Assembly: GCA_009693575.1 (NCBI GenBank)
Contig: SHWZ01000005.1
Coordinates: 19,082-83,081, forward strand
Direction: 5' to 3'
Source: Flavobacteriaceae bacterium
Lineage (GTDB): Bacteria > Bacteroidota > Bacteroidia > UKL13-3
Length of the DNA: 64,000 nt
Positions within the stretch are counted from its first letter, which is position 1, and every line of letters begins with the position of its first letter. Under the pieces are notes generated by a model. That model was not told the DNA's origin and did not search any database. It saw only the letters and a list, made by a program, of their open reading frames with translations. The position numbers and the translations under genes were made by a program. Below are positions 18,947-22,686 of this stretch, one piece after another.

Positions 18947-19381
18947 ATGGAAACCCACGAACGCTTTATGCGAGAGGCATTGAAAGAGGCACAGAAAGCT
19001 TTTGATGCGAAGGAAGTACCTGTTGGATGCGTAGTGGTGTGCCAAGGTGTAGTAATTGGTCGAGGCCATAACCTCACCGAGCGGCTTACGGATGCAACTG
19101 CTCACGCAGAGATGCAAGCTATCACAGCTGCTGCAAATCATATTGGTGGTAAATACCTGATTGAGTGTGCCCTGTATGTGACTCTTGAACCTTGTGTGAT
19201 GTGTGCCGGAGCTATTTATTGGAGTCAGCTTGGTGGGCTGGTATGGGGTGCAAGTGATGAAAAGCGAGGGTTCAGCAAGATATCTCCGACAATCATTCAC
19301 CCAAAAACCGAAGTGACCAAAGGCGTACTTGCCGAAGAGTCTGAAAAGTTGCTGAAAGATTTTTTTAAGAAGTTGCGTTAA
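18947..19381 (+). CDS. tadA: tRNA-adenosine/nucleoside deaminase (TadA-like)
   Basis: VPVGCVVV, AHAEMQAI (HAE) and EPCVMCAGAI (PCxxC) deaminase motifs. Confidence 0.88.
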   Translation: METHERFMREALKEAQKAFDAKEVPVGCVVVCQGVVIGRGHNLTERLTDATAHAEMQAITAAANHIGGKYLIECALYVTLEPCVMCAGAIYWSQLGGLVWGASDEKRGFSKISPTIIHPKTEVTKGVLAEESEKLLKDFFKKLR

Positions 19382-20720
19382 GATTTCCCACGAAGTGTTT
19401 TTGGTAAAAATGTGCGAGCCCCTTCAACTCATTTTGGTTTCGACGGGGAAGATTCTCAACCTTTGAAAGTGCTTCAGTAAGGTGCTTAAACCTTAGTTCC
19501 ATCTTTTCTTTGTCGAAGCTGGCATAAAGCGGCACTGCCTCCACTTGCTCTAGCTGCGAATACGGTTGACCGTTTAGCAAACCAATACTGAGTTTTAGTT
19601 TTAGATAAACAGGTAGATGCCCCCAAGTGAATATATCGTAGGCAACAAAATCGCCCAACGAATAGATGGCAAATCCTTTTTTCTGCCTGCCAGTGCTTTG
19701 GTCTGCAAAAGTGTATGTTTCCATTGGCTGTATATTATGGGGGTGGCTGCCCAAAATAATGTCGGGGCCACACTCATCGAACACCCGATGAAACAAATCA
19801 ACGATATGCGAAGAAGGGTAGGCTTGGTATGCGTTTCCGCAGTGTAGCGATATTGCCGTAAAAGCAGCTCCTCGCTCTTTTGCTAAGCGGCATTGCTCTT
19901 TGAGCAAGGTCAAATCGCATCCGGGGGTGTTCAATGGAAGGTGGTTCGTAAGCCAAGGCTTGTGTTTGGGATTTATTTCTCTGTTAAGAGAGTAAGTATA
20001 GCTTAGAAAAGCTGTGCGGATTCCATTTCTTTCCAAAATGGGAAAGCTATGCAAATCCGTTTCAGTCAATGCTGCTCCGCAGTGGGCTATTTTTTTCTCA
20101 TCCAAAAATGCAAGGGTATCGGCCAACCCCGTTTCCCCCATATCAAGCGAATGATTGTTGGCCACACTTAGCACATCGAAGCCACTGTAGTTTCCATTTC
20201 CATTGAAGATATTAAACATCTCTTCTGAACCATTGAAGTACATATGATATAGCATCATCTCTGGGACTGCCTGCTGCTTTTTGCTTGTCACAATAGGGGT
20301 TTCCAAGTTAGCAGTCACTATGTCTGCTCCAAAAAAATCCTTGCCCACCTCATCCCAAAGATGCTTGGCTGTATTGGCATTGATGAGTTTATAGGGCATC
20401 AGGTCGCCACCTGCATGAAGTGTGATTGAGTTGATTGCTACAAAACCTTCAGGCATGTGAAAATCCAAATCCTGCTCGGCGAAATACGTCTCGGCATCAA
20501 AGCCCTTGCTACCAGTGTTGTGTGGGTTTTGGTAATATTTGTAGCCAAGGTAGATCACTCCGTGTGCACCCATACTGCGTGGGTCTTCCTCAAAATCGCG
20601 AACTGGAAATTTCCATTTGCCCCAATGCAGCCATCCCAGAAATCGATAGATTGCAGCCAATATGGGAATAGTTAAATAGCCTACCCAAGTAACTCCTTTT
20701 GCCGCCTTAGGCTTTTTCAT
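19365..20720 (-). CDS. CapA family protein (poly-gamma-glutamate synthesis-type metallophosphatase)
   Basis: HAGGDLMPYK, VTANLETPIV, SVANNHSLDMGETGLADTLAFLDE, ISLHCGNAY, GPDIILGSHPHNIQPME. Confidence 0.88.
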   Translation of the reverse strand: MKKPKAAKGVTWVGYLTIPILAAIYRFLGWLHWGKWKFPVRDFEEDPRSMGAHGVIYLGYKYYQNPHNTGSKGFDAETYFAEQDLDFHMPEGFVAINSITLHAGGDLMPYKLINANTAKHLWDEVGKDFFGADIVTANLETPIVTSKKQQAVPEMMLYHMYFNGSEEMFNIFNGNGNYSGFDVLSVANNHSLDMGETGLADTLAFLDEKKIAHCGAALTETDLHSFPILERNGIRTAFLSYTYSLNREINPKHKPWLTNHLPLNTPGCDLTLLKEQCRLAKERGAAFTAISLHCGNAYQAYPSSHIVDLFHRVFDECGPDIILGSHPHNIQPMETYTFADQSTGRQKKGFAIYSLGDFVAYDIFTWGHLPVYLKLKLSIGLLNGQPYSQLEQVEAVPLYASFDKEKMELRFKHLTEALSKVENLPRRNQNELKGLAHFYQKHFVGNLNATS

Positions 20721-20768: not shown

Positions 20769-21842
20769 TCAAATCTTCACCCGCATGGCCACACTCAGGC
20801 TGGCACTCCACAGGTGTTCTTTCAATAGTTGCTTGTTGGGATAGCTGTTGGTAAGGCTGCAGTGGAACTCAGGGCCGGCCAGCAGTTCTACTTTGCCAAA
20901 TTGCATTTTCATTCGGGGATTGAATATAGCTGATACTTGCATCAAAGGTTTACGGCGATTGTCGCTATAGGGAGCGTAGTTATCAGCTAAGGGTGACTTT
21001 TCTGCCAGCATCACTGCGGGCAAAAGCCCCTGCCGTAGTTCCAGTTTGGCTTTTCCAATATTCAATTTGTAATCAGCCAATAGCGGCACTTCTAAGCGGT
21101 AACTAGCATATTGACCTAGTTTGGTGTTGCTGCCAGCCTTGTGTATATCGCTCGTGTAAATAGTGTATCCATATTTGCTCAACAAAAGCCCTGTGGTAAT
21201 ATTCCAATTTTTGCTCACTTGTTTGCTCACCATAGCTCCCACAGAAACGAAAGTGGCAGGCCTTTGTTTTAGCATCGAAAGTTGGGAGGTGTTGGAATAG
21301 GTTTGCACATTACTGCCAACAAAAATGGTTCGGTGAGATATGCCCATACTGCCAAACATTTCCAAGGTTAGATTCTTTCTAGGGCATCCTTCCCTGGGCT
21401 TATCGCAAGTAGGTGTTGGTTTATTTTTGAGAAATCCAGCTTCCATTTTTGGTGCTGATAGGGGCAGCATTACTATTTGCAAAGGCCTCGGCATAGGCTC
21501 CATGGCTGGAAGAGGAAATGCTTTTTCGGAAAGTACTATCGAAGGTTGGGTTACTGATTTATTTTCAGCAAAAAAAACTAGTTTTACCTCTGCTACTATC
21601 TCAGCGTTTGCCAACTGCCTATTTACTCGTATTTCCTTGCTTGCAGTTTCGTTTGGGTTAAGATATTTGCCCACGAACATCAACAACACAAATACTGATG
21701 CAAAAGCACCCCATTGAAACATCCTACCCCTTTGCTCGATGCTATGCAGGGCTGATGCCAGAGCATTCCATGAGTCTGAGCTAGTTTTTAGCTCAAAATC
21801 TTTAGCTGCTTTTTTGAGTATATTTTCAGTCGTGCTTTTCAC
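20769..21842 (-). CDS. Predicted anti-sigma-like protein: cytoplasmic N-terminus, one TM helix, Pro-rich linker, C-terminal beta-barrel-like domain
   Basis: GTG start; TM FQWGAFASVFVLLMFVGKYL at about aa 42-61; C-terminal half rich in alternating strands (FVSVGAMVSKQVSKNWNITTGLLLSKYGYTIYT...LPAVMLAEKS...LWSASLSVAMRVKI); lies downstream of a sigma factor. Confidence 0.72.
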   Translation of the reverse strand: MKSTTENILKKAAKDFELKTSSDSWNALASALHSIEQRGRMFQWGAFASVFVLLMFVGKYLNPNETASKEIRVNRQLANAEIVAEVKLVFFAENKSVTQPSIVLSEKAFPLPAMEPMPRPLQIVMLPLSAPKMEAGFLKNKPTPTCDKPREGCPRKNLTLEMFGSMGISHRTIFVGSNVQTYSNTSQLSMLKQRPATFVSVGAMVSKQVSKNWNITTGLLLSKYGYTIYTSDIHKAGSNTKLGQYASYRLEVPLLADYKLNIGKAKLELRQGLLPAVMLAEKSPLADNYAPYSDNRRKPLMQVSAIFNPRMKMQFGKVELLAGPEFHCSLTNSYPNKQLLKEHLWSASLSVAMRVKI

Positions 21843-21981
21843 TGTCCTGGTTTTCTATTTGCCCTTTATTTTCAGATTCTTCTTCCCACCCTTTCTCGGG
21901 CTTGGCCTCCACCGATTTGCCGACTGCTTCCAATAGTTCGTCAAACTGGTCACGCTCGTCCATGCTGGGCTGGTTTTTCAT
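21826..21981 (-). CDS. 51-aa acidic micro-ORF between sigma factor and membrane protein (absent from the supplied ORF track)
   Basis: MKNQPSMDERDQFDELLEAVGKSVEAKPEKGWEEESENKGQIENQDSEKHD; ATGA overlap with the sigma stop and overlap with the downstream GTG start. Confidence 0.6.
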   Translation of the reverse strand: MKNQPSMDERDQFDELLEAVGKSVEAKPEKGWEEESENKGQIENQDSEKHD

Positions 21982-22598
21982 TTAAGGATTGTTACGGTTT
22001 CGAGTGCTATTTCATGTAGTCTTCCTTTGGCGGCTATTAGTCGGGCCATTAACATTCTGGCACGGGTATAATAGTTGCGGATGGTATGTTCTTCAAGCCT
22101 CAATAACGATGCTATTTCCTCATGGTGTTTTCCCTCGATGCTGTACAGATTGAGCACCACCCGATAAGCCGCTGGAAGCGACACAATCATCTCTACAATA
22201 TCGCTGCTGTGCAGTCCCGAGTCAGTTTCTATGTCTTCAAAGTAGCTTTCTGCCAGCACAGGTTCAGGGTATTCTTCAAAGGCCAAGTCAGCCTTAGCCC
22301 ACCGCACAATATTGCTTAGCATGGTGGCCGACAGCCAATCTTGAAAATGCCCTTGAAAACGGTAAAGCTGAATTTTAGAAAATGCCTCAACAAAACCTTG
22401 CTGCATCAGCTCCTCCGCTTTTTGTAGCCCACCGGTGTAGCGATAACAAAGCCCCAACATCTTGGAGGAGTATGCCTCAAACAATGCCTGCTGCGATGGC
22501 CGATGACCATCAAGGCAGCGGCGGATACGTTCCTGTTCTAACCTTGTAGCTGCGTCTCTCAACTCTGACTCAGCATAGAATTCCTGCTTTTGTTTCAT
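21978..22598 (-). CDS. RNA polymerase sigma factor, ECF-type sigma-70 family
   Basis: SQQALFEAYSSKMLGLCYRYTGGLQKAEELMQQGFVEAFSKIQLYRFQGHFQDWL (region 2) and IVSLPAAYRVVLNLYSIEGKHHEEIASLLRLEEHTIRNYYTRARMLM (region 4). Confidence 0.92.
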   Translation of the reverse strand: MKQKQEFYAESELRDAATRLEQERIRRCLDGHRPSQQALFEAYSSKMLGLCYRYTGGLQKAEELMQQGFVEAFSKIQLYRFQGHFQDWLSATMLSNIVRWAKADLAFEEYPEPVLAESYFEDIETDSGLHSSDIVEMIVSLPAAYRVVLNLYSIEGKHHEEIASLLRLEEHTIRNYYTRARMLMARLIAAKGRLHEIALETVTILK

Positions 22599-22658: not shown

Positions 22659-22686
22659 CAAATATAAGTAAAAACTAAGAATCAAA
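22659..22686 (-). promoter_or_regulatory. Bacteroidota-type promoter for the sigma factor gene
   Basis: On the minus strand: TTTG (22686-22683), 16-nt spacer, TATATTTG (22666-22659). Confidence 0.5.

Follow-up and report, generated by a model that had tools for sequence, protein, structure and literature searches.

A putative split Dma-type anti-sigma system with a free-standing 51-residue copy of the Dma N-terminal motif

What does a 51-aa open reading frame (ORF) contribute when it lies between the gene for an ECF-type sigma factor and the gene for a protein that appears to reach both membranes of the cell envelope? The question is raised by three genes in the window, by which we mean the whole 64,000-nucleotide stretch of DNA analyzed here, from an uncultured member of the Bacteroidota. 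In Bacteroides, the dual membrane-spanning anti-sigma (Dma) factor Dma2 consists of an anti-sigma region, a transmembrane (TM) helix, a tether, and a barrel, and the phenotypes of its deletion require the neighbouring sigma factor Das2 (PMC13088901). The same study gives no account of the way in which a Dma protein retains its sigma factor and lets it go (PMC13088901). Of the ECF sigma factors of Bacteroidetes, only 6% are accompanied by a class I anti-sigma domain (PMC7406223).

Gene layout and the Dma-like protein

All features of the gene set are on the minus strand, where the order is sigma factor, 51-aa ORF, 357-aa protein, each gene overlapping the next. The first gene (positions 21978..22598) encodes a Das-like, ECF-type sigma factor of 206 aa, with Pfam matches over the cut-off for sigma region 2 (PF04542, E=1.6e-7) and region 4 (PF08281, E=1.6e-10) and an NCBIfam match to TIGR02937 (5e-15). 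The ATG of the 51-aa ORF (21826..21981) shares an ATGA with the sigma stop codon, and 17 nt are common to this ORF and the gene for the 357-aa protein (20769..21842). The latter gene begins at a GTG with an in-frame stop five codons upstream; since the upstream frame is closed, no other start codon would preserve the N-terminus of the protein.

Upstream of the sigma gene, at 22659-22666 (minus), is TATATTTG, which resembles the Bacteroidota vegetative -7 element. A similar CATATTTGC precedes the sigma gene at each of the four orthologous loci described below, and basal transcription of the set may not depend on the ECF sigma factor. Downstream, 48 bp after the stop codon of the 357-aa protein, a gene for a CapA/poly-gamma-glutamate-synthesis-like protein (19365-20720, minus; assigned by eye) could be co-transcribed. 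At two of the orthologous loci, both in genus g4, a different gene, apparently for a lipoprotein, occupies this place, so the downstream neighbour is not conserved. Because gene neighbours vary among loci, a regulon could not be inferred.

The 357-aa protein was modelled with AlphaFold2 (model m4efb93f730cd) from an input alignment of seven rows of relatives. The model has helices at aa 3-14 and 22-60, and the second contains a hydrophobic stretch, aa 41-60 (21663..21722; Kyte-Doolittle mean 1.52 over 19 residues from aa 41), that is the predicted inner-membrane helix. Residues 55-153 are disordered, with pLDDT under 50, and we assign a Pro-containing periplasmic tether of ~97 aa to residues 61-157 (21372..21662). 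The remainder, aa 158-356 (20775..21371), is predicted to form an outer-membrane barrel of eight main strands, a block in which pLDDT is mostly 80-86. This assignment agrees with a Pfam match to OMP_b-brl_2 at aa 173-294 (E=5.8e-9) and with Foldseek matches to OmpA-class barrels in the PDB (best E=6.4e-8). The mean pLDDT of the model is only 56 because of the tether; values are low outside the barrel, and with its helices at about 50 the helical part of the model is a sketch.

Ahead of the TM helix, at about aa 5-36 (21735..21830), hmmsearch identified a motif that recurs in the N-termini of related proteins. The match has E=4.3e-4 with a motif model built without split systems (those with a separate small ORF), and E=0.0035 with a cross-validated model whose training loci all came from the genome collection. 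No anti-sigma domain model in Pfam or NCBIfam matched either the 51-aa or the 357-aa protein, the relatives scanned had no anti-sigma domain match in Pfam, and by this measure neither protein of the window falls within the class I anti-sigma domain (ASDI) group. The predicted architecture of the 357-aa protein is that of the Bacteroides Dma factors. A preliminary description of this locus had proposed an ECF sigma factor, an ATGA-overlapping 51-aa ORF, and a 357-aa protein with one TM helix at about aa 42-61, a Pro-rich linker, and a C-terminal region resembling an outer-membrane barrel, and had likened the last to dual membrane-spanning anti-sigma factors. The gene set and the identity of the sigma factor were borne out, and the model places a TM segment and a barrel in one chain, joined by a disordered linker, as that likeness demands; the anti-sigma function of the protein is still putative.

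Distribution and origin of the split arrangement

Searches with the Dma-like protein found almost nothing. As this protein evolves fast, the sigma factor was used as the handle for relatives. Four orthologous loci were identified, three in genomes of genus g4 and one in genus g12, with sigma factors 42-47% identical to that of the window. All four have a sigma gene, an ORF of 54-67 aa, and a gene for a TM-plus-barrel protein in the same order as in the window, a synteny that the preliminary description had put forward as a check. Within the family, these four loci score 335-370 bits against the sigma profile, compared to 205 for the next. When six Bacteroides genomes were searched with this profile, Dma-linked and Dma3-like fused sigma factors ranked first at 105-149 bits, whereas no other ECF exceeded 58 bits; part of the high-scoring loci were read individually.

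Split loci thus number five in total, all in one family, of whose 14 genera three are represented. In a set of 105 distinct sigma loci from many Bacteroidota families, each followed by a gene for a TM protein, the small ORF is absent outside these five. A profile of the microproteins searched against 395 genomes of the class found only the window genome, G003, and G011, plus one match in another family (L168) that was discarded as an antisense chance match. Locus L169 has no micro-ORF.

In a tree of the sigma factors, the five split loci form one clade with support of 99/94, so that the arrangement has a single origin on this tree. The clade adjoins genus g14, where there is a single motif and the micro-ORF is absent, and several long branches make this exact sister less certain than the clade itself. 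The g14 loci closest to the split clade (L029, L041, and L132) have one motif, GTG as the first start codon of Dma, and a gap of 63-104 bp between the sigma and Dma genes; this gap is possibly a remnant of a lost micro-ORF. A further g14 locus, L042, is unreadable because of a run of N after the sigma gene.

The microprotein and the N-terminal motif

The 51-aa ORF is protein-coding and under purifying selection. Its open frame is kept in 5/5 orthologous loci. Among the three g4 sequences, dN is about 0.10-0.12 and dS about 0.9-1.2, both computed outside the overlap with the Dma gene, for a dN/dS of about 0.09-0.13. No substitution occurs at E-R-D, F-D, L, P, or W across the five loci and three genera. 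AlphaFold2 predicts a helix-loop-helix (helices 7-23 and 32-49), the same layout as in the Dma N-terminus.

The N-termini of the Dma-like proteins have in common a helix-loop-helix motif of ~30 residues, roughly F[DE]xxL-x10-P-x4-WxxI. In its full loose form, this motif is found in 90/100 non-split N-termini, compared to a mean of 4.9 and a maximum of 12 in 200 shuffles. One, two, or three copies precede the TM helix; for these counts the cross-validated model was preferred, as a loose pattern overcounted some proteins. In a tandem group from the window's family, the model trained only on genome-collection loci recovered two successive copies. The 2.4 Mb genome that holds the window has at least four further sigma/Dma-like pairs, L007 (C33), L011 (C5), L012 (C15), and L013 (C62), which have one, three, two, and one copies, respectively. 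For L011 the model recovers two copies, and the third, insignificant by score, is readable by eye. Motif copy number therefore varies among paralogues within one genome.

Several comparisons show that the microprotein is a free-standing homologue of this motif. Since single-sequence HMM scores of the microproteins are weak (best E=0.025), we used a profile-profile comparison with shuffles. The micro alignment was compared by hhalign with 131 Dma motif copies, none of them from split systems. Over 32 collinear columns the score was 23.6 (E=6.8e-5); shuffling the columns of the micro alignment 200 times gave 14.5 at best. Columns 11-42 of the micro alignment match columns 2-33 of the motif, which places the motif of the window's microprotein at aa 10-40 (RDQFDELLEAVGKSVEAKPEKGWEEESENKG; 21862..21954). 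At the G011 locus, the microprotein and the Dma N-terminus align directly (p<0.001). The spaced pattern F[DE]..[LI].{9,11}P.{3,5}W is present in 5/5 microproteins and 1/6767 control ORFs; because this pattern was devised with the microproteins already in view, more weight falls on the profile comparison. The window's microprotein is the most degenerate of the five, having lost the hydrophobic residue after the tryptophan and having one residue fewer between P and W, and it is not significant on its own against the motif model. The claim of homology thus belongs to the family of microproteins. The preliminary description was right to suspect in the ORF an additional, uncharacterized component; it is not an unrelated one, and is instead a detached copy of the Dma N-terminal motif. 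A match of the micro profile to a chemokine in the PDB (E=0.022) was judged to be chance.

Proposed mechanism and comparison with known systems

We think it probable that the locus encodes a Dma-type switch from envelope to cytoplasm that has been split, with the second motif copy acting as a soluble 51-aa co-anti-sigma factor. The barrel would sit in the outer membrane, with the long disordered tether crossing the periplasm and one helix crossing the inner membrane. The short cytoplasmic helix-loop-helix motif would hold the co-encoded ECF sigma factor at the inner membrane until some state of the barrel or tether releases it. The soluble microprotein would also bind this sigma factor, whether jointly with the Dma motif or following release, and would set the threshold and the speed of shut-off. 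The simplest role for the free copy is that of a second inhibitor acting in trans, given that single chains of other family members carry additional motifs. The whole mechanism depends on binding of the sigma factor by both the microprotein and the Dma motif, which we infer, as we do inhibition, translational coupling, and the part played by the free copy. Our broader proposal is tentative, and we hold it at a little under even confidence: in a divided Dma switch, the free copy would buffer or re-capture the sigma factor after an envelope signal, and the copy number and placement of the motif would be an adjustable part of Dma signalling.

The main rival explanation leaves binding in place and alters its consequence. 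The microprotein could compete with the membrane-bound Dma protein for the sigma factor, in a chaperone-like or priming role, and not be a further inhibitor. It is soluble and homologous to the presumed sigma-binding motif, and the window's copy is weakened after the tryptophan, as might suit a weak binder. However, the existence of chains with tandem copies suggests that additional copies usually contribute to one and the same function, and we consider a competitor unlikely. We give little credence to the idea that the ORF is a leader without protein function that ties translation of Dma to that of the sigma gene. While the overlaps with both neighbours in the window (ATGA and 17 nt) and the GTG start of Dma would suit such an ORF, the genes do not overlap in G011, and a leader would not account for the low dN/dS, the residues invariant across three genera, or the homology to the Dma motif.

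The remaining alternatives would remove the split itself or the anti-sigma role of the larger protein. A +1 ribosomal frameshift at the overlap might also yield a micro-Dma fusion, equivalent to the two-motif chains of relatives; in the window and at the three loci of g4, the two genes do overlap, and Dma is read in the +1 frame with respect to the micro-ORF. The genes in G011 are 2 nt apart and in another frame relation, and no slippery site was identified. As the frame relation is not conserved, such a fusion is not supported, and we regard it as very unlikely. Next to negligible is the chance that a frameshift error in sequencing or assembly has broken up what is really a normal two-motif Dma protein: although the window comes from a draft genome of 86 contigs, four further genomes, from two other genera, show the same split with a separate start and stop for each gene, which largely refutes such an error. 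Under the last alternative, the 357-aa protein would lose a signal sequence by cleavage, reside in the outer membrane, and have no anti-sigma role. The hydrophobic helix ahead of the barrel might be taken for a long signal peptide, and initiation at an ATG at aa 41, in place of the GTG, would remove the N-terminal motif. The motif is nevertheless conserved before the TM helix in 90 of 100 relatives that adjoin sigma genes, and Dma2 deletion phenotypes in Bacteroides need Das2 (PMC13088901), making this alternative highly improbable.

Neither a split Dma nor the ~30-residue motif was found described in the literature searched; the founding Dma1 paper was outside that literature, so a prior description of the motif is possible. 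Structurally, the locus is a Dma system, and the micro-ORF as a free copy of the motif is its new part. Found one to three times before the TM helix and here free, the motif points to a likely sigma-binding module, and the microprotein would be a natural minimal construct for binding and structure work. A free motif copy would also explain an otherwise unannotated 51-aa ORF.

Several known systems resemble that of the window. ASDI proteins (PMC7406223), like the window's motif, place a short helical cytoplasmic inhibitor before a TM helix. However, ASDI has three plus one helices, compared to two in the motif, which no Pfam anti-sigma model matches. In Bacillus subtilis, two proteins, YhdL and YhdK, together restrain one ECF sigma factor, SigM, as a complex (PMC6827917), similar to what we propose here. 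YhdL and YhdK are unrelated to the window's proteins by sequence as far as is known. Their system has no outer membrane, and the small partner in the window is a paralogue of the large partner's motif.

Bacteroides Dma3, in which a sigma domain is fused to Dma (PMC13088901), has a sigma factor of the same subfamily and the same TM-tether-barrel layout as the window, but its sigma domain runs straight into the TM helix with no F-P-W motif as read here. Likely Dma3-like cases, with sigma fused to TM and barrel, are L163:576-2198 (B. nordii) and L164:705-2333, minus (B. salyersiae). Neither has the F-P-W motif, and fusions that dispense with it fit a sigma-holding role of the motif without proving it. 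The closest likeness is to the Bacteroides Dma systems, which have in common with the window an adjacent ECF sigma gene, an N-terminal cytoplasmic region, one TM helix, a long disordered tether, and a C-terminal barrel (PMC13088901). The described Dma operons and about 100 other loci have no micro-ORF between sigma and Dma; in the window, a copy of the motif is a separate protein.
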